Origin: Planctomycetota bacterium
GTDB lineage: Bacteria; Planctomycetota; UBA1135; UBA2386
Assembly (NCBI GenBank): GCA_027621295.1
Contig: JAQCBR010000005.1
Location: 1-64,000, forward strand
DNA length: 64,000 bases
Direction of reading: 5' to 3'
Part shown: in pieces, positions 11,933 to 64,000 of the stretch
Layout of the letters: every line of letters starts with the position of its first letter
Numbering within the stretch: the first letter of the stretch is position 1
Program-made: the position numbers and the translations under genes
The notes under the pieces: model-generated
What the model was told of the DNA's origin: nothing
The model's input: only the letters and a program-made list of their open reading frames with translations
Databases searched by the model: none

Positions 11933-13165
11933 GTGTCGTCCGCCCGCCACAAGACCCCGGTCCTCCTGACCGCCCTGAACCTCAACGGTCTCGGGGTCGC
12001 GCGTGTCCTCTGGGAGCACGGGGTCGAGGTCCATGCGCTGCACGACGGGCCCGACGACGCGCCGGAACTCCAGACGTGCGCCGTCCGCCGCGTGTGGCGG
12101 AGGCCGATCGGCGAGGACCTCGTCGACTTCCTGGCTCGGATCGGTCCCGAGATCGGCGCCGACCGTCCGGTGCTGATGCCGATCACCGACGAGTCCGTCG
12201 AGAGGATCACGGCGGCCCACGCGCGGCTCGAGGCGATCTACCGTCTCCCTTACGGCGACCCCCGTGCGGTGAACGAGCTGCTCAGCAAGAAGGGCATCGA
12301 CGCCGCGGCGCGTGCGCACGGCGTTCCCGTGCCGGCGACGTTCGCGGTGGAGTCCGTCGCGGACATGGAGGGCGTGGCCCGGGAGGTCCGCTACCCGTGC
12401 ATCCTGAAGCCCCAGGACAAGTCGCCGGCGTTCGCGACGACGGGCGCCAAGAAGGCGTCGCGGCTCGAGGACGCGGCGTCGCTGATGGCGGCCTACCGCG
12501 GGTTCTGCGACGCCGAGCCGCGCGCGGTCGTGCAGGAGTTCATCCCCGGCAGCGATGCCGACGTCCACTTCTGCCTCGTGGCCCTCGGGCAGGACGGTCG
12601 TCTGCTGGGTTCGTTCGTCGGTCACAAGATCCGCCAGTGGCCGCCGCGCTGCGGCGGGACCGCCTCCTGCGGACCCGCGCGGGCTCCCGAGCTGGTCGAG
12701 CGGACCGCGGGGTTCCTCGCGGCGGCGGGCGTGCGCGGCGTCGCGTCGTGTGAGTACAAGCGGGACCCCAGGGACGGGCGGTTCCTGCTGATCGAGCCCA
12801 CCGTGGGGCGGAGCGACTGGCAGAACGCCGTCGCGGACATCAACGGCGTGCCGATCCCCTACCTGGTCTACGCCGACGTGGTCGGAGCACCGATTCCGGA
12901 GGTCCGACCGTCGAGGTGGCCCCGGAAGTGGGTGCATTTCACCTCCGACCTTCGTTCCGCCGATGAATACCGGAAACGCGGGGAGCTCAGCCGCCTCGGC
13001 TGGCTGTGGTCCCTCCGTCCTCCGATCCGCTGGTCGTACTTCCACCGTGCGGACACCGGGCCCGCGCGCGCCATCTGGGCCGCGTCGCTCCGGCGTCTGG
13101 CGAAGAAGCTCGGTCTTCCGACGGGGGGCGGTTCCCCCGAGGAGACCGAGGAACGCCCAGCATGA
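11933..13165 (+). CDS. ATP-grasp carboxylate-amine/thiol ligase-like protein
   Basis: Predicted ATP-dependent ligase of 410 residues. The N-terminal Rossmann-like subdomain (PVLLTALNLNGLGVARVLWE) precedes the ATP-grasp core, with ATP-binding phrases YPCILKPQDKSP (about residue 155), AVVQEFIPGSD and the metal-binding FLLIEPTVGRSDW. It resembles the carbamoyl-phosphate-synthase-like and D-aspartate-ligase-like ATP-grasp enzymes often found in surface-polysaccharide clusters. The GTG at 11933 has AGGAAGAG 5 bases upstream. The stop overlaps the next gene (ATGA), so the two products probably work together. An amide- or peptide-type decoration of a glycan or lipid carrier is a possible role. Confidence 0.85.
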   Translation: MSSARHKTPVLLTALNLNGLGVARVLWEHGVEVHALHDGPDDAPELQTCAVRRVWRRPIGEDLVDFLARIGPEIGADRPVLMPITDESVERITAAHARLEAIYRLPYGDPRAVNELLSKKGIDAAARAHGVPVPATFAVESVADMEGVAREVRYPCILKPQDKSPAFATTGAKKASRLEDAASLMAAYRGFCDAEPRAVVQEFIPGSDADVHFCLVALGQDGRLLGSFVGHKIRQWPPRCGGTASCGPARAPELVERTAGFLAAAGVRGVASCEYKRDPRDGRFLLIEPTVGRSDWQNAVADINGVPIPYLVYADVVGAPIPEVRPSRWPRKWVHFTSDLRSADEYRKRGELSRLGWLWSLRPPIRWSYFHRADTGPARAIWAASLRRLAKKLGLPTGGGSPEETEERPA

Positions 13166-14358
13166 CCGTGATCAGCCGGACCGAGACGATGAACCCGCAG
13201 CAGGAGGCCATCACCGCGACGTTCCGCGATCGGTTCGTGCCGGTCGCGCTGCGCGGTCTCGAGCGGATGCTCGTCGACGATGGCCGCTGGTTCTCGTTCC
13301 GTGCGTTCGCCGGGGCTGGCGCCGAAGAGCTCCGCAACGAGGGGATCTCCGAGCGCTACTCGGTGATGTCCCTGCTCGGCCTCGACGCACAGCGCGCGCT
13401 CGGTCGTAGCGATTTAGTCGAGACCGGACCCGTCGTCGAGAGTCTCGCCGCGTGGGCGCCGCGGGCACCGAGCCTCGGGGATGCGGGGCTCGTCCTCTGG
13501 AACCACATCCAGCGCGGCGACGACCGCGCGGAAGCGCTCGCGCGTGCGATCGTCGATCGGCGTGCCGAGCTGGACCGACGCGAGTTCGGATTCGCCAGCA
13601 TGGACATGGGCTGCCTCGTCCTCGGTCTCTCGGAGGCGCTGCGCGCTGGCTGCGAGGTCCACGGGCAGCGCGAGCTCGCGGCCAGCGTCGCTGGACGGCT
13701 GATGGAGCAGCAGGACCCGGCGACCCGGCTGTTCTCGTTCGGTCGCAAGACCCGCCGCAAGAACCTGATCCGCCTGCGTTCGGACACCCACCTGGGCAGC
13801 TTCGCCTCGCAGGTCTACCCGACGATGGGTCTCTCGGCGCACGCGCGTGCGACCGGCGACGAACGTTCGGCGGCCGGCGCCGCCGGCTGCGCCCAGCGCA
13901 TCTGCGCGCTCCAGGGCGAGGCCGGGCAGTGGTGGTGGGTCTACCACGTGAAGACGGGTCGCGAGGCCGTCCGCTACCCGGTCTACACCGTCCACCAGGA
14001 CGCGATGGGGCCGATGATGCTCGCCGCGGCTGCGCTCGGCGTGGGCGACGACTCCCGCTACCACGACGCGATCGCCAAGAGCCTCGGCTGGTTCGATCGG
14101 CGTCCGGAACTCCCGAACGCAGAGTTCGTCGACGAAGCGCGCGGTGCGGTCTGGCGCGCAGCCCAACACGACGACCCGTCCTCGACCGGCCTGCTCGGCC
14201 TCGGCTCGGGCGAACTCAAGCGCATGCACTTCGGTGCGTGGACCGGTCGCGCGGACGAGCGGCCGCTCCACGGTGGCCACGTCTGCGGCGAGTGCCGCTC
14301 CTACCACCTCGGCTGGATCCTGCTGGCGGACGCGATGTACGCCGAGGTCGTGGGGTGA
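13162..14358 (+). CDS. Uncharacterised predicted alpha/alpha-toroid protein coupled to ATP-grasp
   Basis: Not recognised as a named family. The 398-residue product has no signal peptide or membrane segment and is a series of alpha-helices. Gly/Ala-rich turns and aromatic clusters (QWWWVYHVKTG, RYPVYTVHQDAMGPMML, ELKRMHFGAWTGRA) give the look of an alpha/alpha toroid such as terpene-cyclase-like or unsaturated-glycan-hydrolase folds. It ends with a Cys pair (GGHVCGECRSYH) that could bind metal. The ATG at 13162 overlaps the ATP-grasp stop by four bases. The strict coupling argues for a joint role, possibly making or processing the ATP-grasp product. Confidence 0.8.
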   Translation: MTVISRTETMNPQQEAITATFRDRFVPVALRGLERMLVDDGRWFSFRAFAGAGAEELRNEGISERYSVMSLLGLDAQRALGRSDLVETGPVVESLAAWAPRAPSLGDAGLVLWNHIQRGDDRAEALARAIVDRRAELDRREFGFASMDMGCLVLGLSEALRAGCEVHGQRELAASVAGRLMEQQDPATRLFSFGRKTRRKNLIRLRSDTHLGSFASQVYPTMGLSAHARATGDERSAAGAAGCAQRICALQGEAGQWWWVYHVKTGREAVRYPVYTVHQDAMGPMMLAAAALGVGDDSRYHDAIAKSLGWFDRRPELPNAEFVDEARGAVWRAAQHDDPSSTGLLGLGSGELKRMHFGAWTGRADERPLHGGHVCGECRSYHLGWILLADAMYAEVVG

Positions 14359-49202: not shown

Positions 49203-51806
49203 ATGCCTCGCATCGCGCTCTCCGTCCTGCTCGTCGCTGCTGCCGGATACGCCCACGCGCAGGTCCCCCTGACCAGCGAGCAGCTGCGCGGACTGACCTT
49301 CCGAAGCCTCGGTCCGTGCCTGACCACGGGCCGGATCGCGGACCTCGAGGTGAGTCCGCACGACCCAGATCTCTGGTTCCTCGCTTCGGCGTCGGGCGGG
49401 TTGTTCCGGAGCGAGGACGGCGGCGATCACTGGGCGGCGATCTTCGACGCACACGAGGGCTACTCGCTGGGCTGCGTCGTCGTGGACCCGCGCGACCGGA
49501 ACGTGGTCTGGCTAGGGACCGGTGAGAACACGCACAACCGCAGCACGTCGTACGGCACCGGCGTCTACAAGTCGCTCGACGGCGGCGACACGTGGTCGTG
49601 CGTCGGGCTCACCGGCACCGAGAAGATCCAGGAGATCCTGATCGACCCGCGGGACTCCGAGGTCGTCTACGTGGTTGCGCCCGGGCCCTTGTGGCGGGCA
49701 GGCGGCGAGCGCGGTCTCTACAAGACGGTCGACGGCGGCGAGACGTGGACGCGCGCGCTCCACATGAGCGACGACACGGGCATCACCGACGCCGCGTTCC
49801 GTCCCGGCGATCCCGACGTGATCTACGCCGCTGCCTACCAGCGCCGTCGTCACAACGCGATGTGTGTCGCGGGCGGTCCCGAAGCCGGCATCCTGCGGAG
49901 CACGGACGCGGGCGCGACCTGGCGCAGGATCGAGGTCGGTCTGCCGGACGTGGACATGGGGCGGATCGCGCTGGCCGTCGATCCGCGTGCACCGCTGCGT
50001 GTCTGTGCGACGGTCGTCGCGCGCGGCGAGGCAGGCGGCACGTTCGTCAGTGAGGACGGCGGCGACAGCTGGACCAAGCACAGCGACTACGCGGGCGGGG
50101 ATCCCCAGTACTACGGCGAGCTGTTCGTGGACCCGCACCGACCCGACACGCTTTGGAACGTCGACGTGCGCGTGATGCGGAGCACGGACCTCGGTCGGAC
50201 GTGGGGTCCGCTGCCGTTCGCGATGCACGTCGACAACCACGAGGTCGTCTTCGACCCCGCCGACCCGGCGCACGTCTGGATCGGCAACGACGGCGGGCTC
50301 TACGAAACGCACGGCTACGACCACGACCGACCCCAAGCCGCGCGCTGGCGCCACTTCACCAACCTGCCGCTGTCCCAGTTCTACCGGGTGTCGTGCGACC
50401 TATCGCGACCGTTCTACCGCGTCACGGGCGGCGCCCAGGACAACGGCACGATCGCGGGACCGTCGCGCAGCGAGAACCGGATCGGCGTGCGCACGAGTGA
50501 CTGGTTCACGGTCGGCGGCGGCGACGGGTTCCAGGCATTCTTCGACCCCACGCGGTCGGAGCTCGTCTACGGCCAGTCGCAGAACGGCGCGCTCTACCGA
50601 CTCGATCTGTCCACGGGCCAGCGCGCCGGCATCCGGCCGACGCAGGGTGCCGAGGACGGCGGTCGCTGGCACTGGGACAGCCCGCTGCTCGTCAGTCGCC
50701 ACGCCGACGGACGCCTCTACTACGCAGGTGAGCGGGTCTACCGCAGCGACGACCGCGGGGACGGCTGGACCGCGATCAGCGGCGACCTGACGCGCAACCT
50801 GGACCGAACTCAGCTCCCGATCATGGGCAAGGTCCAGGACGCGGACGCCGTCGGGCTACATCTCTACACGACGACGATGAGCGTCGTGACCGCGCTCGAC
50901 GAGTCGCCGCGAGTGCCGGGCCTTCTCTACGCGGGCAGCGACGACGGTCTGGTGCACGTCACCGAGAACGGCGGTCGTTCGTGGACGCGCGTCGAACGGC
51001 TGGGGCCCGCGCCCGAGCAGTCCTACGTCACCGACCTGTTCGCATCGGCGCTGGACGACGATGTCGTGTTCGCGACCGTCAACAACTGGCAGCTCGGCGA
51101 CTTCCGACCCTGGGTCCTGCGCAGCGACGACCGTGGGCGGACGTGGACCGACATCACGGGCAACCTGCCGCAGCGATCGGGCACGTGGTCGATCGTGCAG
51201 GACGGCGAGGCGGCCGGGCTGCTCTTCGTCGGCACGGAGTTCGGCGTCTACGTGACCATCGACGGCGGCGGGCACTGGACGCTGATGGAGGCAGGGATGC
51301 CGCGTATCCAGGCGCGCGACCTGCACCTGCAAGCACAGTGGCACGACCTCGTCGTGGGCACCTTCGGCCGCGGGATCTTCGTGCTCGACGACATCTCGGC
51401 GCTGCGCGATCTGACGCCGGACCTGCTCGCCTCCGAGGCGGCGCTGCTCCGCTGTCGGCCGGCGCCGCGGTTCGAGGAGCGCCGGGAGGTCCCCGCGGTG
51501 TGGGGCAACGAGACGGCCCCGAATCCGCCGTTCGGCGCCACGCTGACGTACTACGTCGGCGCCGCGCTCGGTGACCGCAGCCTCTTGCTGGCGATCTCCG
51601 ATGCGGCCGGCGAGACCGTCCGCGAGCTCGAGCTGGCGGCGACCACTGGCCTGCACCGGGTGACCTGGGACCTGCGCAACGGCGGTCGAGGCCGCGAGCT
51701 CGTGTCTGTCGCCCGCTACGCAGCGCAGCTCATGGTCGTCGGACCCGAGGGGCGAGAGCCAATCGGCGAGCCGCAGGAAGTGTGGGTCACCGACCTGGAG
51801 CGGTGA
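49203..51806 (+). CDS. Secreted sortilin/VPS10-like Asp-box beta-propeller protein
   Basis: Exported protein of 867 residues with signal peptide ALSVLLVAAAGYAHAQ. About ten Asp-box/BNR-type repeats are visible: SEDGGDHW, SLDGGDTW, TVDGGETW, STDAGATW, SEDGGDSW, STDLGRTW, SDDRGDGW, TENGGRSW, SDDRGRTW and TIDGGGHW. They predict one or two large beta-propellers. A beta-sandwich tail follows after about residue 770. The protein type is common in planctomycetes and often annotated as glycosyl hydrolase, but catalytic residues were not seen. The start at 49203 has no strong ribosome-binding site. Confidence 0.88.
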   Translation: MPRIALSVLLVAAAGYAHAQVPLTSEQLRGLTFRSLGPCLTTGRIADLEVSPHDPDLWFLASASGGLFRSEDGGDHWAAIFDAHEGYSLGCVVVDPRDRNVVWLGTGENTHNRSTSYGTGVYKSLDGGDTWSCVGLTGTEKIQEILIDPRDSEVVYVVAPGPLWRAGGERGLYKTVDGGETWTRALHMSDDTGITDAAFRPGDPDVIYAAAYQRRRHNAMCVAGGPEAGILRSTDAGATWRRIEVGLPDVDMGRIALAVDPRAPLRVCATVVARGEAGGTFVSEDGGDSWTKHSDYAGGDPQYYGELFVDPHRPDTLWNVDVRVMRSTDLGRTWGPLPFAMHVDNHEVVFDPADPAHVWIGNDGGLYETHGYDHDRPQAARWRHFTNLPLSQFYRVSCDLSRPFYRVTGGAQDNGTIAGPSRSENRIGVRTSDWFTVGGGDGFQAFFDPTRSELVYGQSQNGALYRLDLSTGQRAGIRPTQGAEDGGRWHWDSPLLVSRHADGRLYYAGERVYRSDDRGDGWTAISGDLTRNLDRTQLPIMGKVQDADAVGLHLYTTTMSVVTALDESPRVPGLLYAGSDDGLVHVTENGGRSWTRVERLGPAPEQSYVTDLFASALDDDVVFATVNNWQLGDFRPWVLRSDDRGRTWTDITGNLPQRSGTWSIVQDGEAAGLLFVGTEFGVYVTIDGGGHWTLMEAGMPRIQARDLHLQAQWHDLVVGTFGRGIFVLDDISALRDLTPDLLASEAALLRCRPAPRFEERREVPAVWGNETAPNPPFGATLTYYVGAALGDRSLLLAISDAAGETVRELELAATTGLHRVTWDLRNGGRGRELVSVARYAAQLMVVGPEGREPIGEPQEVWVTDLER

Positions 51807-51839: not shown

Positions 51840-52889
51840 TCACGGCGCCCGCACGACGTAGTCGTCGTACTCGTCGTCCCACTCCAGCGTCACGTGGTCG
51901 CGGGCGGCGGCGGCCTTGCAGAACTGGAGGAAGCCGTTGTAGCCGAGGCTCTTCTCGCTGAAGCCCTGGTCGCGCTTGCGGACCTTGTTCTTGAGGCCGG
52001 AGAGGACCGGGGGTTCGCCGTTCTCCTGCTCGGCGTCGGCGCAGACGTCGGAGAGGAGGCGGAACGCGCGGTCTTCGCCAGCGCCCTGCTCGGGGAAGGT
52101 GACCTCGGGGTCGCCGCGGTTCTGGCCCTTGACGAGGTCGAGGACCTTGCGCTCCTGGAGGAAGCGGAGGAGCTCGCCGAACGCGCGGAAGCCGAAGTCG
52201 GCCTCGCTGAAGGTCGGGTCCTTGCGGAGCAGCGCGCGCTTGAGCGCGGAGGCGAGGACCGGGCCGTCGGCGGTGGCCTGGACGCCGGTCAGCGTGCGGC
52301 GCACGAGGCGCTCGAGGCCGTCGACGTCGCCGGAGCCGGGCGCCATGTCGGCGGTGGTGGGCTCCTCGGCCTCGTCGCGGCGGCGCTGCGGGCGGGGGCG
52401 ACCCTTGCGCGGTTCGACGCCCTCGAGGTTCTCGTAGAACAGGAACTCGTCGCAGGCCGCGGGGAGCAGCAGCGAGGTCGACGCCTTGATGCCGACGCCG
52501 ATCACGCGCTTGTTGTGTTCGCGGAGCTTGTGGACCAGCGGCGTGAAGTCGCTGTCGCCGGTCACGAACACGAACGTCGTCAGGTAGTCGCGCTCGAAGG
52601 ACATCTCCATCGCGTCGACGGCCATCTTGATGTCGGCGGCGTTCTTGCGGCTACCGCCCATCTTCTGGGGGATCTCGATCAGCTCGACGTGGAGGCGCGT
52701 CAGCATCTTCCGGTCGGGCTCGAACATCGTCCAATCGCCGTAGGCGCGGCGCACGACGACGCGGCCGCGCTCGGCGAGCGCGTCGGCGATCGGGCCGAAG
52801 TCGAACGGGATCCCGAGGCGCTCGCGCGAACCGATCGCGAGGTTCTCGTAGTCGATGAACAACGCGATCCGCTCTTCGTCGGGCTTCAT
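51840..52889 (-). CDS. NYN (PIN-like) nuclease domain with two LOTUS/OST-HTH domains
   Basis: Predicted RNA-acting protein of 349 residues. NYN domain at residues about 5-150 with acidic sites LFIDYENLAIG, ADIKMAVDAM and FVTGDSDFTPLV, the arrangement of the PIN-like NYN nuclease fold. A basic linker (RKGRPRPQRRRDE) leads to two LOTUS/OST-HTH domains at about 190-265 (LKRALLRKDPTFSEADFGF) and 275-345 (KVRKRDQGFSEKSLGYNGF). Such domains bind RNA. The start is the ATG at 52889; it faces the divergent DUF1080 gene across a 162-base spacer. Confidence 0.92.
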   Translation of the reverse strand: MKPDEERIALFIDYENLAIGSRERLGIPFDFGPIADALAERGRVVVRRAYGDWTMFEPDRKMLTRLHVELIEIPQKMGGSRKNAADIKMAVDAMEMSFERDYLTTFVFVTGDSDFTPLVHKLREHNKRVIGVGIKASTSLLLPAACDEFLFYENLEGVEPRKGRPRPQRRRDEAEEPTTADMAPGSGDVDGLERLVRRTLTGVQATADGPVLASALKRALLRKDPTFSEADFGFRAFGELLRFLQERKVLDLVKGQNRGDPEVTFPEQGAGEDRAFRLLSDVCADAEQENGEPPVLSGLKNKVRKRDQGFSEKSLGYNGFLQFCKAAAARDHVTLEWDDEYDDYVVRAP

Positions 52890-54257: not shown

Positions 54258-56156
54258 ATGGTTTGCTCCAACCTCCAACACATCCTGGCCGCGGCGGCGG
54301 TCGGCGCGGGTCTCGTCAGCGTCGCTCAGGCGCAGAACGAGATCCTCGTCTCATCCGACATCACCACGTCCACCACGTGGACGGCAAGCAACACCTACAA
54401 CCTGACCCGTCAGATCTACGTCCGTCCGGGCGCGACGCTGACGATTGAGGCCGGCACGCTCGTCGCGAGCTCGACGAACATCGGCGGCAGCCTCGCGGTC
54501 TCGCGCGGCGGCCAGATCTTCGTCCAGGGCACGGCCGAGAACCCGGTCATCATGACCTCGAAGGCCGACGTCCAGACCTGGACGAACGGCAACCGCCGCA
54601 CCGGCACCTGGCGCGAGTCCGCCAACGAGTGGGGCAACCTGACGATCATGGGTCGCGGCTACATCGCGGAGAACGCGGTGCTCTCCAACACCCCGACGCC
54701 GAACGCCAGCAACTACGCGCCGATGGAAGGCCTCCTCGCCGCGTTCCCCGGCGACCCGAGCGTCCTCTACGGCGGCGGCAACGACGACGACGACAGCGGC
54801 AGCATCAGCTACCTGTCGCTCCGCTACGGCGGCAAGGTCATCAACCTCAACAACGAGCTGAACGGCATGTCGCTCGGCGGGATCGGTCGCGAGACCGACA
54901 TCCACCACGTCGAGATCATGAACAACGTCGACGACGGGATCGAGATCTGGGGTGGCACCGTCAACCTCAACCACTTCGCGATCTGGAACATCGGCGACGA
55001 CAGCCTCGACATCGACCAGGGCTGGCGCGGCAAGGCCCAGTTCGGCCTGATCGTCCAGGGTCACAGCCTCGACGCCTCGCAGGGCTCGGGTGTTGGCGAC
55101 AACACGATCGAGATGGACGGTGCGGAAGACGCGGACTACCAGCCGGTCACGACCGCGTCGATCTACAACATGACCGTCATCGGTCAGCCGGTCGACGGCG
55201 ACGGCCTGACGGCCTGGCGTGACAACGCGCGCGTCCAGTTCCGCAACTCGATCTTCATGGACTGCGGCGAGAAGGTCGTCCGCTTCGACAACGTCGACGG
55301 TGACGGCGCGAACGGCTACGGCTTCAACAACACGCTGTCGTGGGCCGCGACCTGGACCACGCCCTACACCGCCTACTCGACGGTCAACGCTCCGGCCAAC
55401 CCGGCCGCGTTCTACACCGCGCAGACCTCGGGCAACCTGATCGAGATCACCAACTCGGTCTTCTACAACAACAACAACGGCGCGGCCTACACCGAGGCGG
55501 ACGCTCGTGACGTGTTCAACGTTGCGAACAACAACGTCCGTGAGCCGTCGACCAGCCCGATCGTGTCGATCACCCGCGGCGCTGCGGTCGTCCGCGGCGG
55601 CAAGGTCATGCAGCCGGTCACGTCCCTCGACCCGCGCCCGGCGGGCGACGCGCTGACCTCGGTCGGCTTCGCGCCGAACGACGGCTTCTTCACGCAGGCC
55701 AACTTCCGCGGCGCGTTCGCGCCGGGCGCCAACTGGCTCGGCGGCTGGACCGCTTCCGAAGCGTTCGGCTTCACGCCGAACGACGGCTGGAGCGACCTGG
55801 GCCTCGGCCTCGGCGGCGGCAGCAAGGGCCAGCCGGTCCTCGCCGGCTCGGGCACGCTCACCGGCGGCTCGGCCCTGACGCTGACGCTGTCGAACGCGCA
55901 GCCGAACGCTCCGGTCGCGCTGGCGCTGTCCGCCGCTCGCGGTGACCTGCCGGTCTTCGGCGGCACGCTCGTCCCGAGCCTCGCGTTCGGCACGGTCGTC
56001 GGTCTTGCGACCAACGCGAACGGTGGGTTCACCCTGCCGCTGGGCTCCGGCCTGCCGGCCGGCGTCACCGCCTACTTCCAGGCCTGGTGCGTCGACCTGA
56101 CCGGCCCGGCCTTCGGCTTCACGGCGTCGAACGCTCTCAAGGCCGAAGTCCAGTGA
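54258..56156 (+). CDS. Secreted right-handed beta-helix protein with C-terminal lineage module
   Basis: Exported protein of 632 residues. Signal peptide HILAAAAVGAGLVSVAQAQ after the ATG at 54258. The mature start (STTWTASNTYNLTRQIYVRP, then GATLTIEAGTLV) is the cap typical of right-handed parallel beta-helices. Asn/Gly/Asp-rich coils continue to about residue 430 (IHHVEIMNNVDDGIEIWGGT, LNHFAIWNIGDDSLDID). The last about 100 residues (from GQPVLAGSGTLTGG, with YFQAWCVDLTG, to SNALKAEV) form the module shared with other secreted proteins. Codon use is very biased (nearly all Asn as AAC), suggesting high expression. A terminator-like hairpin follows, so it is a separate transcript or readthrough unit before the TonB genes. 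Confidence 0.85.
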   Translation: MVCSNLQHILAAAAVGAGLVSVAQAQNEILVSSDITTSTTWTASNTYNLTRQIYVRPGATLTIEAGTLVASSTNIGGSLAVSRGGQIFVQGTAENPVIMTSKADVQTWTNGNRRTGTWRESANEWGNLTIMGRGYIAENAVLSNTPTPNASNYAPMEGLLAAFPGDPSVLYGGGNDDDDSGSISYLSLRYGGKVINLNNELNGMSLGGIGRETDIHHVEIMNNVDDGIEIWGGTVNLNHFAIWNIGDDSLDIDQGWRGKAQFGLIVQGHSLDASQGSGVGDNTIEMDGAEDADYQPVTTASIYNMTVIGQPVDGDGLTAWRDNARVQFRNSIFMDCGEKVVRFDNVDGDGANGYGFNNTLSWAATWTTPYTAYSTVNAPANPAAFYTAQTSGNLIEITNSVFYNNNNGAAYTEADARDVFNVANNNVREPSTSPIVSITRGAAVVRGGKVMQPVTSLDPRPAGDALTSVGFAPNDGFFTQANFRGAFAPGANWLGGWTASEAFGFTPNDGWSDLGLGLGGGSKGQPVLAGSGTLTGGSALTLTLSNAQPNAPVALALSAARGDLPVFGGTLVPSLAFGTVVGLATNANGGFTLPLGSGLPAGVTAYFQAWCVDLTGPAFGFTASNALKAEVQ

Positions 56157-56162
56157 GTGCGC

Positions 56163-56182
56163 GGGAGGGGGCATCCCCTCCC
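56163..56182 (+). terminator. Hairpin after the beta-helix gene
   Basis: GGGAGGGG-GCAT-CCCCTCCC is a perfect 8-bp stem starting 7 bases after the stop at 56156. No T-tract. A second stem, AGGAGGT at 56185-56191 with ACCTCCT at 56212-56218, follows closely. Partial termination would set a high ratio of beta-helix to downstream products. Confidence 0.55.
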
Positions 56183-56253
56183 CAAGGAGGTTCCCGCCCC
56201 GTCCGGCGGTGACCTCCTCCACCGGGTCTCCGCCCGAGTTCGGAGTCCCTCTG

Positions 56254-57468
56254 ATGAACAAGCTGTCCCTGTCCCTCTCTGTGTTGCTCGGCCTCGTCGT
56301 CGGGTTCGGTGCCTGCCGTCGTGAGCAGGCGGACGAACCCGCGGGGCCGGCCGCATACCGCGTCGAGCTGCTGCAGACCGCAGCCAGCGCCGCGGCGGCG
56401 TTCCCGCTGGACCCGCACGTGAAGACGCGCTCCCGCCTGCAGCAGCAGGTGGTCGAGGCCTGCCTCGAGGTGGGCGCGATCGAGCTGGCGGCTTCCACGA
56501 CGGACGAGATCGTCAACTGGCGCCGCGGGCTCGCGCTCGCCGCGCTCGCGGAGAAGGTCGGGCTGTCGGGCGATCGAGCCGGTGCCGAGGCACGGATCGA
56601 GGCTGCACTCGCCGAAGCGCAGAAGGTGCTGCAGGACCCGGACCAGCAGGAGTGGCGGCGCGACGCGATCCTCGCGCGCGTCGGTGAGACCTGGCTCGCG
56701 CTGGGTGAGATGGAGCGCGCCGTCGGCATCCGGGCTGGTCTGGATCCGGAGCAGGCGAGGCGCCTCGATGCGGGCCTCGCCGACCGACTCGATGCCGAGC
56801 AGGCACGTGCCCAGCTCGAGATCGTCGACCGGGCGATCGCTTCGGAGAACCTCGCCGACGTCCACACCGCACTGCTGGCCTGCGTGCGGATCTTCACAGC
56901 TCTCTACGCGATCGAGGAACTCCGCGAAGCCTGTGTCGACCGCATCCAGAACGGCTACCCGAAGCTGCCGGTGATGCTGCGCCTCGAGCTCCTGGCCCAG
57001 CTCGCCGAGGCGGCTCTCGACCATGACGACGCCGCGACCGCGCGGCGACTCGCCCTCGACGTCCAGCGCCGCGGCGACGGCGTGCAGTGGGCGGCGGAGC
57101 AGCACGCTCCGCACCTCGCGCGGACCGGGCGGCTGCTCGCCCTCTGCGGGGAGGAACAAGCAGCCCGCCGTGAGATCAAGGCCGCGGAAGCAGCCTTCGA
57201 CGCCGGTCACGAGCGGATCTTCGACATCGACCGCTGCGATGCGCTGCTGCCGGTGTTCGACGCGTGGAGGACGCTCGGCGACGCCGAGAAGGCCGAGGCC
57301 ACGCTCGCTCGCGCGGTCCAGGAGGCATCGGTGAACCCGAACGCCCGCCCGCGCGCCGAAGACCTCGTCGCAACCCTGATTCTCCTCGCTCGGATCGGCT
57401 ACGAGCCGTCCGCGCCCGTCCGCCAGGCCCTGATCGAACTCCGGGAGGGTCTCGTCGACCCGTGGTGA
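56254..57468 (+). CDS. Helical-repeat lipoprotein
   Basis: Product of 404 residues with a lipoprotein signal (LSVLLGLVVGFGACRREQ, Cys at 21). The mature part is entirely alpha-helical with TPR-like pairs rich in Ala, Leu, Glu and Arg (IELAASTTDEIVNWRRGLALAA; LAQLAEAALDHDDAATARRLA). It probably serves as a periplasmic or outer-membrane scaffold for the neighbouring receptor. GGAG lies 8 bases before the ATG. The stop overlaps the receptor start (GTGA). No catalytic residues were seen. TPR-type partners are common beside TonB systems of this layout, as I recall from other phyla. Confidence 0.85.
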   Translation: MNKLSLSLSVLLGLVVGFGACRREQADEPAGPAAYRVELLQTAASAAAAFPLDPHVKTRSRLQQQVVEACLEVGAIELAASTTDEIVNWRRGLALAALAEKVGLSGDRAGAEARIEAALAEAQKVLQDPDQQEWRRDAILARVGETWLALGEMERAVGIRAGLDPEQARRLDAGLADRLDAEQARAQLEIVDRAIASENLADVHTALLACVRIFTALYAIEELREACVDRIQNGYPKLPVMLRLELLAQLAEAALDHDDAATARRLALDVQRRGDGVQWAAEQHAPHLARTGRLLALCGEEQAARREIKAAEAAFDAGHERIFDIDRCDALLPVFDAWRTLGDAEKAEATLARAVQEASVNPNARPRAEDLVATLILLARIGYEPSAPVRQALIELREGLVDPW

Positions 57469-60422
57469 ACTCGCTGCTCATCCGCTGCTTCACCGCAGCG
57501 CTCTGTCTCGGCACGCTCGCCTCGGCCCAGCAGGCGGGGGCGATCCGAGGCACGGTCTTCGACAAGGACTTCGACGCACCGCTCGCCGCGGTGAAGGTCC
57601 TCCTGGTCGAGGCCGGCGTGACCGTCGAGACGACGGACCAGGGCAACTTCCGCTTCGCGGACGTCGCGGCGGGGCGCTACACGCTCGTCTTCTCGAAGGA
57701 CGGCTACGTGCGCGAGGTCCCGCCGCCCGTCGTCGTCACCGCCGGCCAGCTGACCGACCTCGAGGTCCGCATGGCGGGCGACTACACGGACCTCGAGGAG
57801 TTCGTCGTCCAGGACATCCTGCAGCTCGGCGGTGGGTCAGAAGCTGCGCTGCTCCAGCTCCGGCTGGAGAGCCCGTCGATGATGGACTCGATCAGCGCGG
57901 AGCTGATGAGTCGATCCGGCGCGAGCGATGCGGCGTCCGCGCTGCGCCTCGTTGCCGGCGCATCGCTCAAGGACGGCAAGTCCGCGGTCATCCGCGGTCT
58001 GCCGGACCGCTACGTCAGCTCGCAGCTGAACGGCCTGCGCCTGCCGACGGCTGACAACGACAAGCGCGCGGTCGAGCTCGACCAGTTCCCGGCCTCGGTG
58101 ATCGAGAGCGTCCGGGTCAACAAGACCTTCACCCCCGACCAGCAGGGCGACGCCTCCGGCGGGGCGGTCGACGTGCGGCTCAAGGGCGTTCCGGACGAGC
58201 CGTTCTTCGTGAACTTCCAGGCCGAGCGGGGCTACAACTCGCAGGTCGGGCGTCGCGGCGACTTCCTGACGTACGACGGGGGAGGTCTGACCAACCTCGG
58301 CAAGGACGACGGCCGTCGCGACCAGCAGTTCGACAACCTCGGCGGCAACTGGGAGGGTGCGGTCGGCGTCGCTGAAGGCGATGCGCCGATCGACTACAAG
58401 CTACGCGGCTCGATGGGCGGCAAGTTCGAGATCGCCCGTGGCGTGCGTGTCGGCGGCTTCGGCAGCCTGTTCTACGAGCGCGATTCGTCCTTCTACAACA
58501 ACGGCATCGACGACCAGTGGTGGGTCGAGAACCCCGGGGATCCGATGACTCCGGCGACCCAGCAGGGCACGGCTCAGGACGGGGACTTCAAGACCCAGTT
58601 CTTCGACGTCACGCAGGCCAACCGCTCGGTGCAGTGGGGGGGGCTCGGTGCAGTCGGGATCGAGACCGATGCGCACCAGGTGAACCTCGCCTACCTCTAC
58701 TCCCGCAACGCGGCCGACGAGACGACGCTCGCGGAGGACACGCGCGGCAAGGAGTACTTCTTCCCCGGCTACGACCCGAACGACCCCACGTCGCCGGGCT
58801 ACAGCGAGGAGGACGCCGCTCCGTACGTGCGGCTCGAGACACTCGAATACACCGAGCGTCGGACCGACTCCCTCCAGCTCAGCGGTCGCCACGAATTCGA
58901 GACCGCGAAGTTCGGGATCTTCGGAGCTCCGGAGCTCGACTGGGTGTTCGCGAAGAGCTCGGCGCTCCAGGACCGCCCCGACAAGCGTCAGTTCGGTTCG
59001 ATCTGGGTGCCCCAGCGTGACGTGGTCGGGATCACGATCCCGCCGACGCACCGCGCGTACAAGCCGTCCGCGAACTTCACGCTCGGCAACCTCCAGCGGA
59101 TCTGGGAGCGCATCGAGGAGGAGAGCGACCAGTACGCGCTCAACCTCAAGCTGCCGTTCGTGCAGTGGGGGCGTGAGAAGGGCTACCTGAAGTTCGGCGT
59201 GTTCTCGGACGCGGTGCGCCGCACGTTCGATCAGGACACCTACAGCAACTTCGGCGACAACTCGTCCTACGCGGGTGACTGGGACGACCTCTGGAGTCGC
59301 AACTTCCCGTTCGAGAACCATCCGATCACCGAGTCGACGCTCGACGTCGACTACACCGGCACGCAGGACATCCGCGCCCAGTATGCGATGGTCGACCTGC
59401 CGCTCGGCTCCGACCTGAAGTTCGTCGGCGGCGCCCGCATCGAGTCGACGGACATCAGCATCATCAACGACCCCGAAGAGGACGCGACCTGGTATCCGCC
59501 GGGCTCCTCCGCGCCGGTCATCCTGAACCCGGGTGACGGCGACGTCGCGTTCTCCGACGAGCAGGTGCTGCCCGCCGCCGCGTTCGTGTGGACGCCGACC
59601 GACCAGTGGACGTTCCGTGCGTCGTACACGGAGACGGTTGCGCGGCAGACCTTCAAGGAGCTGTCGCCGATCCTGCGCCAGGAGTACCTGGGCGGCCCGA
59701 TCTTCATCGGCAATCCGGACCTCCGGATGAGCTCGCTGAAGAACTACGACCTCCGCGCCGACTACGCGCCGTACGAGGGCGGGCTCTGGTCGGTGTCCTG
59801 GTTCCACAAGGACCTGAAGGACCCGATCGAGTACGTGCAGCGGATCGCGGCGTTCAACTTCACGTCCGCGGTCAACTACCCGAAGGGCACGATCACCGGC
59901 TGGGAGTTCGAAGTGCGCCAGGACGTCGGCCGCGTCTGGGATCCGCTCGAGGGTCTCGCCATCGGCGCGAACGCGACGCTGATCGACTCGAGCGTGACGC
60001 TGCCGGAGGACGAGCAGGCGGGCTTCCGCCTGCCGAACATCCTCGCGCCGATGGAGAGCCGCGAGATGACCTCCGCGCCGGAGCATCTCTACAACCTCTA
60101 CCTGACGCACGACATCGTGCAGACGGGAACGCAGCTCGCGCTCTTCTACACGTTGACCGGGGACACGCTGATCGCCGGCGCGGGCCAGGCGGACGGCAAC
60201 TACATCCCGAACGTCTACCAGAAGAGCTACGGCCAGCTGAACTTCAGCCTGTCGCAGCGCCTCGGGGACTACCTCCGCCTGCAGTTCAAGGCGAAGAACC
60301 TCACCAACCCCGACATCCAGACCGTCTACCGCTCGGAGTACATCGGCGGCGACGTGCTGAAGACCTCCTACTCGCAGGGCATCGACTACTCGATCAGCCT
60401 CGGCGCCGAGTTCCGGTTCTGA
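57465..60422 (+). CDS. TonB-dependent outer-membrane receptor with carboxypeptidase-regulatory-like N-terminal domain
   Basis: Outer-membrane beta-barrel receptor of 985 residues. Signal peptide (IRCFTAALCLGTLASAQ), then a carboxypeptidase-regulatory-like beta-domain at residues about 25-105 (GAIRGTVFDKDFDAPLAAVK). A TonB-box-like EEFVVQD follows, and a plug domain holds AVIRGLPDRYVSSQLNGLRLP near residue 177. Barrel strands run to a C-terminal Phe (SISLGAEFRF). Two in-frame GTG codons (57462, 57465) are possible; 57465 overlaps the lipoprotein stop as GTGA. This architecture resembles the Oar-type branch, of which at least one member has been linked to protein secretion in Myxococcus. Substrate is not shown. 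Confidence 0.93.
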   Translation: MNSLLIRCFTAALCLGTLASAQQAGAIRGTVFDKDFDAPLAAVKVLLVEAGVTVETTDQGNFRFADVAAGRYTLVFSKDGYVREVPPPVVVTAGQLTDLEVRMAGDYTDLEEFVVQDILQLGGGSEAALLQLRLESPSMMDSISAELMSRSGASDAASALRLVAGASLKDGKSAVIRGLPDRYVSSQLNGLRLPTADNDKRAVELDQFPASVIESVRVNKTFTPDQQGDASGGAVDVRLKGVPDEPFFVNFQAERGYNSQVGRRGDFLTYDGGGLTNLGKDDGRRDQQFDNLGGNWEGAVGVAEGDAPIDYKLRGSMGGKFEIARGVRVGGFGSLFYERDSSFYNNGIDDQWWVENPGDPMTPATQQGTAQDGDFKTQFFDVTQANRSVQWGGLGAVGIETDAHQVNLAYLYSRNAADETTLAEDTRGKEYFFPGYDPNDPTSPGYSEEDAAPYVRLETLEYTERRTDSLQLSGRHEFETAKFGIFGAPELDWVFAKSSALQDRPDKRQFGSIWVPQRDVVGITIPPTHRAYKPSANFTLGNLQRIWERIEEESDQYALNLKLPFVQWGREKGYLKFGVFSDAVRRTFDQDTYSNFGDNSSYAGDWDDLWSRNFPFENHPITESTLDVDYTGTQDIRAQYAMVDLPLGSDLKFVGGARIESTDISIINDPEEDATWYPPGSSAPVILNPGDGDVAFSDEQVLPAAAFVWTPTDQWTFRASYTETVARQTFKELSPILRQEYLGGPIFIGNPDLRMSSLKNYDLRADYAPYEGGLWSVSWFHKDLKDPIEYVQRIAAFNFTSAVNYPKGTITGWEFEVRQDVGRVWDPLEGLAIGANATLIDSSVTLPEDEQAGFRLPNILAPMESREMTSAPEHLYNLYLTHDIVQTGTQLALFYTLTGDTLIAGAGQADGNYIPNVYQKSYGQLNFSLSQRLGDYLRLQFKAKNLTNPDIQTVYRSEYIGGDVLKTSYSQGIDYSISLGAEFRF

Positions 60423-60448
60423 CCGGAGGCCCTGCAAACCACAGCCAG

Positions 60449-61312
60449 ATGCACGCGATCCTGACCATGGAAACCAAGACGAGAGGGCGACGCGCGTCCT
60501 CGCAAATCATCCTCGCTGCGGTCGCAGCGACGGCGGCGCTCGGTCTCGGCGAGGCCGGCTCGCTCCGCGCGCAGGAGGCCGGTGCTCGCCTCGAGTCGGC
60601 GCGGACGGCGCTCGAGAAGACCGTCGAGACGCGGCGCATCCTGTCGAAGGAACGCCGGGACTGGAAGGTCGGCAAGGAGCTCCTCGAGGAGCGGATCGGC
60701 CTCGTGGGTCGGGAGACCGACGCGCTGCGCGAGCGGATCGCCGGAGCCGAGGCAAGTATCTCCGAAGCCGACAAGAGCAAGATCGAGCTCGTCGAGGAGA
60801 GCGATCGCCTCAAGGCTGCTGCAGCAGGTCTCGCGGACGGCATCGTCGCGGTCGAGGCGCGCACCCGGGCGTTGCTCGGTCGTCTGCCCGGCATGCTCCG
60901 CGATCGCGTCAAGCCGCTCAGCCAGCGCATCCCGGAGCCGGACGCGAAGGAGCCGACCAAGCTGTCGCTGTCGGAGCGCTTCCAGAACGTCGTCGGGATC
61001 CTCAACGAGGTGAACAAGTTCCAGCGCGAGATCACGATGGCGAGCGAAGTGCGCGAGCTGGGTGACGGCACGCGGATCGACGTCACCGCGCTCTATGTCG
61101 GCATCGGCCAGGGCTACTACGTGAACCAGAAGGGCACGATCGCCGGCATCGGGACCGCGACCGCGGACGGCTGGCAGTGGCGCCCGGCGAACGACGCAGC
61201 GCCCGCGATCGCCCGCACGATCGCGATCCTGGAGAACAAGGAGCCAGCCACCTTCGTGCCGCTGCCGATCCGCATCGAGAAGAACGACACCCAGAAGGAG
61301 GCCGGCCGATGA
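60449..61312 (+). CDS. DUF3450 periplasmic coiled-coil protein
   Basis: Protein of 287 residues of the DUF3450 family, which accompanies ExbB/ExbD in TonB systems of this type. A signal-anchor (LAAVAATAALGLGEAGSLRAQ) precedes a long coiled coil (residues about 45-150) and a compact domain with LSLSERFQNVVGILNEVNKFQ and LYVGIGQGYYVNQKGTIAG. The ATG at 60449 or 60467 could be the start. The stop overlaps the next ExbB start (ATGA). It probably bridges the inner-membrane motor to the receptor. Confidence 0.9.
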   Translation: MHAILTMETKTRGRRASSQIILAAVAATAALGLGEAGSLRAQEAGARLESARTALEKTVETRRILSKERRDWKVGKELLEERIGLVGRETDALRERIAGAEASISEADKSKIELVEESDRLKAAAAGLADGIVAVEARTRALLGRLPGMLRDRVKPLSQRIPEPDAKEPTKLSLSERFQNVVGILNEVNKFQREITMASEVRELGDGTRIDVTALYVGIGQGYYVNQKGTIAGIGTATADGWQWRPANDAAPAIARTIAILENKEPATFVPLPIRIEKNDTQKEAGR

Positions 61313-62904
61313 ACCGCTTCGCACGTCACGTGTCCTCTGCGGTGCTGTGCACCGCGGTCTCCGGGCTCTTCGCGAGCGCGCCCCGTGCCCAGGAACCCGA
61401 GGCCACGCAGCCGGCCCAGCAGGGCTTCGAGGCCGCTTCGGCCGCCGTGCAGGCCGATCTCGAGAAGAGCCTCGCCGAACTCGCGGCCCTGCGTGAGCAG
61501 ATCGCGGCGGACCAGGTGCCCCTGAGTCGTCGGCTGAGCGAGCTCGAGGCGGAGCTGATCACCGTCCGCTCCGAGTTCCAGCAGAAGACGCGCGTGCTCG
61601 ATGGCCGCGCGCTCGACCTCAACAACCTCAAGGGTGAGATCAAGTCCCGCGAGGAAGAGGCGAGCTACCTGCAGAGCCTGCTCGGCGAGTACGCCCGCAA
61701 CTTCGAGTCGCGTCTGCACATCGTCGAGGTGGACCGCTACGCAGCGGCGCTCGAGGCGGCACGGCTGGCGGGCGAGGACTCGAGCCTGTCCGAGGCCGAG
61801 GTCTACGCGCGCCAGCTCGACGTGCTCAACGCGTCGCTCGGGCGGATCGAGGATGCGCTCGGCGGAACCACCTTCCGCGGCGATGCCGTCGCGGACGGCG
61901 TCGTCACCGAAGGCCGGATCGCGATGGTCGGCCCGGCAGCCTGGTTCCTCTCGGACGACGGCTCTGTGGTCGGCACGGCCGAACAGCGTCTCGGTTCACT
62001 CGAACCGGCGGTGATCCCCTTCACCGTTCCCGAGATGACGGACGCGGCGCGGGACTTCGTCGAGCGAGCCGAAGGAGCCATGCCTCTCGACCCGACGCTC
62101 GGCAACGCCCACAAGATCGCGGCGATCGAGGAGACGTTCCTCGAGCACGTGATTAAGGGCGGGCCGGTCATGTATCCGATCTTCGGCATGGCTGCGGCGG
62201 CGCTGCTCGTCGCGCTGCTGAAGTGGCTGTCCCTGTCCCTGATCGGCAAGCCGTCGAAGAAGCAGGTGCAGGGACTGCTCGAAGCCGTCGCCGCGGGCGA
62301 CGAGGCGGAGGCCGGCAGCCGGGCGCGGAAGATGCGCGGTCCGGTCGGCAGGATGCTCGCCGCCGGCGTCGAGCACCTTCGCGAGCCCCGGGAGCTGATC
62401 GAAGAGGTGATGTACGAGCGCGTCCTGACGACGCGGCTCAAGGTGCAGAGCTACCTGCCCTTCGTCGCGATCTGCGCGGCGTCGGCGCCTCTGCTCGGCC
62501 TGCTCGGCACCGTGACCGGGATCATCAACACGTTCAAGCAGATCACGGTGTTCGGTACCGGCGACCCGAAGATGCTGTCCGGCGGCATCTCGGAGGCGCT
62601 GATCACGACCAAGTTCGGTCTGGTCGTCGCGATCCCGTCGCTCCTGCTCCACGCCTACCTGTCGCGGAAGGCCCGCGGCGTGGTCGGCGGCATGGAGGCG
62701 GCGGCCGTCGCGTTCTCGAACCAGGTCAGCAAGACGCCGCTCGGCGGCCGCAAGGAACCGGCCGCTCCGTCGGCGGGTGAAGGCGCGCCGGCCGTCGCAG
62801 CCACGGTCGACTCGGCCGCGGTCCGCGCCCAGGTCACGTCCATCCTCGAGGAGATCCTCGCGCCGCTGTCGGCCGAGGGCGCAGGTCGCGGCAACAGCCG
62901 CTGA
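61309..62904 (+). CDS. ExbB/TolQ-family motor protein with long periplasmic coiled coil (TtpC-like)
   Basis: Motor subunit of 531 residues, far longer than ordinary ExbB (about 240). Signal peptide, then a coiled coil at about residues 40-120 (ELAALREQIAADQVPLSRRL) and a periplasmic domain. Three membrane segments follow at about 285-305, 380-405 and 425-450, including the MotA/TolQ/ExbB core PLLGLLGTVTGIINTF and GGISEALITTKFGLVVAIPS. AAGGAGG is 7 bases before the ATG. It overlaps DUF3450 (ATGA). The arrangement resembles the TtpC protein of Vibrio TonB2 systems. Confidence 0.92.
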   Translation: MNRFARHVSSAVLCTAVSGLFASAPRAQEPEATQPAQQGFEAASAAVQADLEKSLAELAALREQIAADQVPLSRRLSELEAELITVRSEFQQKTRVLDGRALDLNNLKGEIKSREEEASYLQSLLGEYARNFESRLHIVEVDRYAAALEAARLAGEDSSLSEAEVYARQLDVLNASLGRIEDALGGTTFRGDAVADGVVTEGRIAMVGPAAWFLSDDGSVVGTAEQRLGSLEPAVIPFTVPEMTDAARDFVERAEGAMPLDPTLGNAHKIAAIEETFLEHVIKGGPVMYPIFGMAAAALLVALLKWLSLSLIGKPSKKQVQGLLEAVAAGDEAEAGSRARKMRGPVGRMLAAGVEHLREPRELIEEVMYERVLTTRLKVQSYLPFVAICAASAPLLGLLGTVTGIINTFKQITVFGTGDPKMLSGGISEALITTKFGLVVAIPSLLLHAYLSRKARGVVGGMEAAAVAFSNQVSKTPLGGRKEPAAPSAGEGAPAVAATVDSAAVRAQVTSILEEILAPLSAEGAGRGNSR

Positions 62905-62944
62905 TCCGGAGTCATTCTTCACCAACGCCCCACGGATTCGAACG

Positions 62945-63664
62945 TTGCCGACCCCTGCAGAAGCATCCTGGATCGACGAGCTCGCCGCCGTCTGGTCGCA
63001 GGCCGTGGACATCTGGCTGTCCGGCGGCTGGGCGATGTGGGCGATCGCCGTCATCGCTCTCCTGATGTTCGGGATGGGCGTCCACGTCCATCTCGCGCTG
63101 CGGACGAAGGGCTTCCTGTCGGTCCCCGAGTCGGTGTGGCGTCGCTGGATCGACCGGCCGATGGACCGCGAGGGTCCGATCGGCGAGCTGCTCGACTTCG
63201 TGACCGGCGCGCGCACGCTGGAGGACGCGGCGATCTCGTTCGAGCAGCTCCAGGTCTCCGAGGCCGCGCCGTTCGAGCGCGACCTCAAGGTGATGAAGGT
63301 CTGCGTCAGCGCGGCCCCGCTCGTCGGCCTGCTCGGCACCGTGACCGGGATGCTCGCGACGTTCGGCGCGCTGTCGTCCGGGTCCGGCGGCGACAAGACG
63401 ATGGCGATGATCGCCGACGGCATCTCGGAGGCGCTGATCACCACCGAGACCGGCCTCGTGATCGCGCTGCCCGGCCTGTTCTTCCAGTACCAGCTCAACC
63501 GGGGCTTCCAGGCCTACACGGCGTTCCTCGCCCACCTGGAGTCCGTGTGCAACCAGACCCTCTACCGCGAGCTCAGGGAGTCGCGTGACCGGGACGTGCG
63601 GCGTGAGGCGCAGCGTGAGATCGCTGCGCGCCTCCGCGAGCTGCGTTCGGCTCCGACCGCCTGA
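62945..63664 (+). CDS. ExbB/TolQ-family proton channel subunit
   Basis: Second, conventional ExbB of 239 residues. First membrane helix GGWAMWAIAVIALLMFG. The motor core is PLVGLLGTVTGMLATFGALS and DGISEALITTETGLVIALPG, and polar helix-3 Thr residues are present. A charged C-terminal tail follows. No ATG or GTG lies between the previous stop and the first helix, so the TTG at 62945 is taken as start. It presumably pairs with the ExbD that follows 27 bases downstream to form a proton channel. Confidence 0.9.
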   Translation: MPTPAEASWIDELAAVWSQAVDIWLSGGWAMWAIAVIALLMFGMGVHVHLALRTKGFLSVPESVWRRWIDRPMDREGPIGELLDFVTGARTLEDAAISFEQLQVSEAAPFERDLKVMKVCVSAAPLVGLLGTVTGMLATFGALSSGSGGDKTMAMIADGISEALITTETGLVIALPGLFFQYQLNRGFQAYTAFLAHLESVCNQTLYRELRESRDRDVRREAQREIAARLRELRSAPTA

Positions 63665-63691
63665 TCCGCGCAACCGACCGAAGCGAGAACG

Positions 63692-64000
63692 ATGGCACGA
63701 TTCCGCGAAATGGCAGGAGACGACGACGGCGAGACCGGCATCGACATGTCGCCGCTGATCGACTGCGTCTTCATCCTGCTGATCTTCTTCATCGTCACGA
63801 CGGTCTTCGTCGAGGAGACGGGCGTCGAGGTCGACAAGCCGCAGGCGGCGTCGGCGTCGCAGCTGGAGAAGACCAGCATCCTGATCGCGCTGACCGACAA
63901 GGGGCAGATCGTCTACGGCGGTCGAGAGATCGGGATCAGCGGCGTGCAGCCGCTCGTCAAGCGGATGCTCCAGAAGGAGGACATCCCGGTGATCATCCAG
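63692..64000 (+). CDS. ExbD/TolR-family protein, C-terminus missing at window edge
   Basis: Start of an ExbD-type subunit; the frame stays open to base 64000 (103 of about 135-140 residues). The membrane helix with the proton-carrying aspartate is visible: [21 protein letters not shown] periplasmic domain begins after it. It completes the ExbB/ExbD pair. A second ExbD and a TonB gene are expected to the right, outside the window. Confidence 0.92.

Follow-up and report, generated by a model that had tools for sequence, protein, structure and literature searches.

The window analysed here, a 64,000-nucleotide stretch of a planctomycete contig, carries at its right end a run of genes that all lie on the forward strand. 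The first of these (54258–56156, start at 54258) codes for a secreted, probably ElpS-related β-helix protein of 632 residues, in which a Sec signal (residues ~1–25, ending in AQA) precedes a conserved core (~28–506) and a variable C-terminal domain (~510–632). It is followed by a 404-residue TPR-like lipoprotein (56254–57468) and by a TonB-dependent receptor (57465–60422, GTG start) with the TonB box EEFVVQD, whose Pfam architecture combines an N-terminal CarboxypepD_reg domain, a plug and the TonB-dependent barrel. Downstream lie genes for a TtpB-like DUF3450 protein (60449–61312; 77.9 bits against a Pfam cut-off of 32.6) and for two proteins of the MotA/TolQ/ExbB family, namely a long, TtpC-like version with a coiled-coil-like N-terminal region (61309–62904) and an ordinary ExbB (62945–63664), the start of which is uncertain, with the TTG at 62945 being likely. 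The run continues with ExbD, which begins at 63692 and runs on past the window to 64105, and then, to the right of the window, with TonB (64119–64793, end approximate; TonB_C, 58 bits) and a TtpD-like lipoprotein with Pfam TPR repeats (64801–66363, end approximate).

The open reading frames, together with Pfam for the named families, bear out the gene set and order given in the original prediction. Its statement that starts overlap from the lipoprotein onward holds for the lipoprotein/receptor and DUF3450/TtpC junctions, with 4 bp each, but the remaining junctions are short gaps. Likewise, the TonB and TPR genes that it placed beyond position 64000 were found there, but the second ExbD was not; the run has a single ExbD. 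Close to the start of ExbB, a stretch resembling a tRNA T-arm yielded no tRNA with ARAGORN, and an Rfam match to mir-1842 scored far under its cut-off and was regarded as chance.

Several flanking genes may be recorded alongside this run. On the 3' side of the TPR gene there is a probable lipoprotein of 413 residues (66400–67641 in window numbering; 12401–13642 of locus L002), which matches no Pfam or NCBIfam model and has no conserved counterpart in the other cassettes. On the 5' side are a secreted BNR/sortilin-like β-propeller protein of 867 residues (49203–51806) and, on the reverse strand, an NYN-domain protein (51840–52889) with a marginal OST-HTH/LOTUS match. In the source genome (4.6 Mb, 89.7% complete) just two TonB-dependent receptors were found. 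Its other ExbD genes form a pair on contig C244 (5402–16486), away from the TonB2-type unit and near two secretin-like reading frames, and this region may be a locus of its own, serving secretion or trafficking.

The β-helix protein recovered no match in Pfam or NCBIfam and no significant one among PDB sequences. AlphaFold2 models its core with confidence (pLDDT 89.6), and when this model was compared with PDB folds the top matches were nearly all β-helix enzymes or phage tailspikes, albeit weak ones (best E 0.013, TM-score ~0.3 or less). Since the matches are almost all β-helical yet none is significant, the β-helix fold class is likely on the basis of the model, in a subtype without a close solved relative. 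Numerous Asp, Glu, Arg and Trp positions of the core are invariant. The C-terminus, by comparison, has been swapped between lineages, and in the window protein it is a domain that also occurs in four other proteins of the same genome (contigs C140, C251, C67 and C156). A terminus that is both swapped between lineages and shared by several proteins of one genome suggests a general export or anchoring route; in this lineage the domain may serve broadly in sorting or anchoring. The window protein lacks a lipobox. The adjoining lipoprotein is modeled as an all-helical, TPR-like solenoid (pLDDT 93.5).

Searches of GTDB planctomycete genomes with the helix protein alone recovered 46 loci. The same receptor is present in all 39 of those with a long enough contig, the other seven contigs ending too early, and the TPR-like lipoprotein adjoins the helix gene in at least 42 of the 46 by automatic count, with one further case (L031) concealed by reading-frame boundaries. 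Among 343 evenly drawn planctomycete genomes the helix protein occurs in 54, DUF3450 in 68 and both in 48; that is, DUF3450 is found in 48 of the 54 genomes with the helix protein as against 20 of the 289 others (Fisher p ~1e-35, uncorrected for genome relatedness), and in nearly all shared cases the two genes lie within 8 kb of each other. This association is far beyond chance. The gene order is permuted across the phylum—the helix and lipoprotein genes stand first in some loci and last in others, or the power unit lies ahead of the helix-receptor pair—a pattern more indicative of functional linkage than of one frozen operon. Five planctomycete loci have a shorter power unit, distant in sequence and with one ExbB, indicating that the energizer is replaceable without loss of the helix, lipoprotein or receptor. 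No consistent additional neighbor emerged among 113 flanking proteins. The run is a strongly conserved planctomycete cassette, and it is also carried by the cultured planctomycete Pla86.

Beyond the phylum, plasmid and chromid records were searched by tblastn, and distant helix homologs were confirmed by HMM (hmmsearch E ~1e-48 for Sphingomonas and ~1e-74 for Indioceanicola). The original prediction had placed comparable runs beside β-helix proteins in Gammaproteobacteria, and such runs do exist: Pseudoalteromonas has the order DUF3450-ExbB-ExbB-ExbD-TonB-TPR-helix-receptor, and an Alteromonas macleodii plasmid has phoB-phoR-pstS-2OG oxygenase-helix-receptor-DUF3450-ExbB-ExbB-ExbD-TonB-TPR. 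In Bacteroidota, Parabacteroides, Hymenobacter, Aureibacter, Bacteroides and Phocaeicola possess the receptor-helix pair only, and in Sphingomonas and Indioceanicola the order is helix-receptor-gspC/N-gspD-gspE. An exception to the pairing is a Marinobacter salarius plasmid, where a helix homolog (L058, 7578–9155) has no adjoining TonB receptor. The receptors of the non-planctomycete pairs are homologous to that of the window, and the TonB box is kept in the receptors across all lineages. Most helix relatives outside Planctomycetota have a lipobox. Several homologs consist of two or three tandem helix domains (loci L055, L056, L066 and L060, and G311 C1 at 2183958–2186906), with the three-domain versions reaching ~1360 residues.

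The position ahead of the gsp genes is that published for Caulobacter cc0170 and cc0171, which precede the type II secretion genes, with homologs in the same position in Sphingomonas alaskensis and Hyphomonas and further cc0170 homologs in Shewanella and Bacteroides (Le Blastier et al., PMC2996285). By homology to proteins in the cc0170 position, the window protein is probably a relative of CC0170 (ElpS), the identity of the latter being taken from gene position and its published description. According to that study, cells make the lipoprotein ElpS when starved of phosphate, and it is repressed by phosphate and not induced by iron depletion; its surface exposure is independent of the type II system, its release step is type-II-dependent, and it is found together with CC0171 in stalks (PMC2996285). 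A 2024 study assigns several TonB receptors, along with the type II system, to the Caulobacter PhoB regulon (PMC11208175).

Phosphate genes also occur beside some of the planctomycete cassettes. In one genome, G275 (L093, L109), a co-directional series comes after the cassette: a small lipoprotein-like gene, a porin O/P gene, another small gene and then pstS, pstC, pstA, pstB and phoU; PstB, PhoU, PstA and PstS exceed their NCBIfam cut-offs and PstC falls slightly under its own. Elsewhere, pstS and phoU lie immediately upstream of the cassette (L040), ppk and ppx are found near it (L045), and two loci (L021 and L032) have upstream regulators for which PhoB is the closest family, with scores under its cut-off. 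Overall, a Pho gene is nearby in five of ~60 planctomycete loci as against one of 60 control regions, a comparison that is suggestive only because the queries were partly drawn from the tested loci. The window's own neighbors, including those of the upstream flank, comprise no Pho gene, and when the regions preceding the helix gene in 47 planctomycete sequences were scanned for a proteobacterial Pho box, no signal rose above shuffled sequence. Taken together, the planctomycete Pho neighbors, ElpS and the Alteromonas locus form a pattern that favors phosphorus.

We therefore propose that the cassette is probably a phosphorus-acquisition surface module with a dedicated TonB2-type energizer; that phosphate is the signal, that transport runs inward and what each protein does are inferred. 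The β-helix protein would be exported by Sec and then cross the outer membrane by a general route, staying at or near the surface, possibly tethered there through its C-terminal domain or by the adjoining TPR lipoprotein. There it would capture or mobilize a phosphorus source, and the TonB-dependent receptor, working with it, would import the ligand, with the TtpB-TtpC-ExbB-ExbD-TonB-TtpD unit delivering proton-motive energy to the receptor. In favor of such a module we count the conservation of the cassette, the cross-phylum helix-receptor pair, the ElpS position, the Pho neighbors, the TonB box, the six-gene TonB2 operon of Vibrio vulnificus, which energizes import, and the detection of only two TonB receptors in the genome. 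Against it we count the window's lack of Pho neighbors, the small share of planctomycete loci that have a Pho gene nearby, the negative Pho-box scan, the missing ElpS-type lipobox and the iron-uptake role of the characterized TonB2 system, as well as two observations from Caulobacter, namely that no change in intracellular phosphate was seen and that cc0171 was constitutive (PMC2996285).

What the helix protein does within the phosphorus module could take the form of catalysis: it might attack phosphorus compounds outside the cell, for instance as a phosphatase or phosphodiesterase, with the receptor importing the product. The many invariant charged and Trp residues of the core speak for this, as does the rise in secreted alkaline phosphatase activity on ElpS overproduction, although ElpS itself was not shown to be an enzyme (PMC2996285). 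As the helix protein also matches no known phosphatase or hydrolase family in Pfam or NCBIfam, we regard this more specific version as a rather tentative one. We rate it as unlikely that the module instead imports another nutrient, such as an iron-siderophore, haem or a glycan, with the helix protein as its surface binder. Such a role would fit the V. vulnificus system, where siderophore uptake requires both TtpB2 (DUF3450) and TtpD2 (TPR) (2019, PMC6957404). In addition, binding or cleavage of polysaccharides is common among β-helix folds, and the weak matches in the PDB fold comparison are enzymes of this sort. However, none of those matches is significant, siderophore and glycan genes are not recurrent among the flanking proteins whereas Pho genes appear at several loci, and the regulation of ElpS described above follows phosphate and not iron.

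The direction of transport could also be reversed: as the original prediction suggested for the receptor, it might, with its TonB unit, move the β-helix protein across the outer membrane or load it on the surface, a role that Oar reportedly has for PopC in Myxococcus. The strictness of the helix-receptor pairing is in keeping with this. Export through the receptor is also conceivable in that ElpS becomes surface-exposed without the type II system by no described route, and no surface test of a cc0171 mutant is reported in the consulted sections of the Caulobacter study (PMC2996285), but no result here points to it. Were it true, loading by the receptor would explain that exposure and would add to Oar another TonB-dependent receptor that exports a protein. 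The proposed link to Oar was not supported. The receptor matches PF00593 and, under its cut-off, TIGR01782; neither it nor any other protein of the genome matches PF25183, which we take to be an Oar-like barrel family, and this speaks against its membership in the Oar group. Further, the helix protein is made with a Sec signal, while PopC has no signal peptide; its C-terminus is variable and resembles that of other proteins in the genome; its relatives adjoin type II secretion or Pho genes; and the ~1360-residue homologs with three tandem domains would be a hard cargo for a barrel. Secretin-like genes exist in the genome, and import receptors are commonly paired with surface proteins. We accordingly view receptor-driven export or loading as quite improbable, and import with a surface partner as the most likely mode of action.

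The phosphorus-import reading has several implications. On this reading, TonB2-type units would in some cases drive the acquisition of phosphorus and not iron uptake alone, and a protein family that neither Pfam nor NCBIfam models would gain a candidate function. It also joins two little-known findings, ElpS and the TtpB/TtpC/TtpD components, as one conserved multi-phylum module. Caulobacter and Pla86 provide direct test grounds for the role of the helix protein and for its route to the surface.

The view of the locus as a little-studied TonB2-type system built around a β-helix protein is upheld. The cassette order DUF3450-long ExbB-ExbB-ExbD-TonB-TPR is that of Vibrio TtpB-TtpC-ExbB-ExbD-TonB-TtpD, with the six components in identical order to the V. 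vulnificus TtpB2-TtpC2-ExbB2-ExbD2-TonB2-TtpD2. The Vibrio system as described, however, is a six-gene operon for siderophore uptake with neither a helix protein nor a member of the window's TPR-like lipoprotein family, whereas the window has the receptor and the helix gene within the same run. ElpS and CC0171 share with the window a helix-family protein adjoining a TonB receptor, and the same-position alphaproteobacterial pairs match the window proteins by sequence; in contrast, ElpS is itself a lipoprotein encoded beside type II secretion genes, and the window combines a helix protein lacking a lipobox with a distinct TPR lipoprotein and an attached, complete TonB2-type unit. The Alteromonas and Pseudoalteromonas loci have the helix family, the receptor and a complete TonB2-type unit in permuted order, but their helix proteins are lipoproteins in which the domain is often repeated two or three times in tandem, and no separate TPR lipoprotein lies between helix and receptor, this component being found only in planctomycete cassettes. 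Myxococcus Oar/PopC resembles the window in linking a TonB receptor with its own Ton genes to an extracellular protein, and differs in the missing signal peptide of PopC and in the barrel family of the receptor. The claim of an undescribed system stands in part: both halves have been published separately, ElpS with its TonB receptor and the phosphate-starvation link in 2010 (PMC2996285) and the TtpB and TtpD components of TonB2 in 2019 (PMC6957404), but the union of the helix-receptor pair with the TonB2 unit, the planctomycete form and the linkage to pst genes are new.
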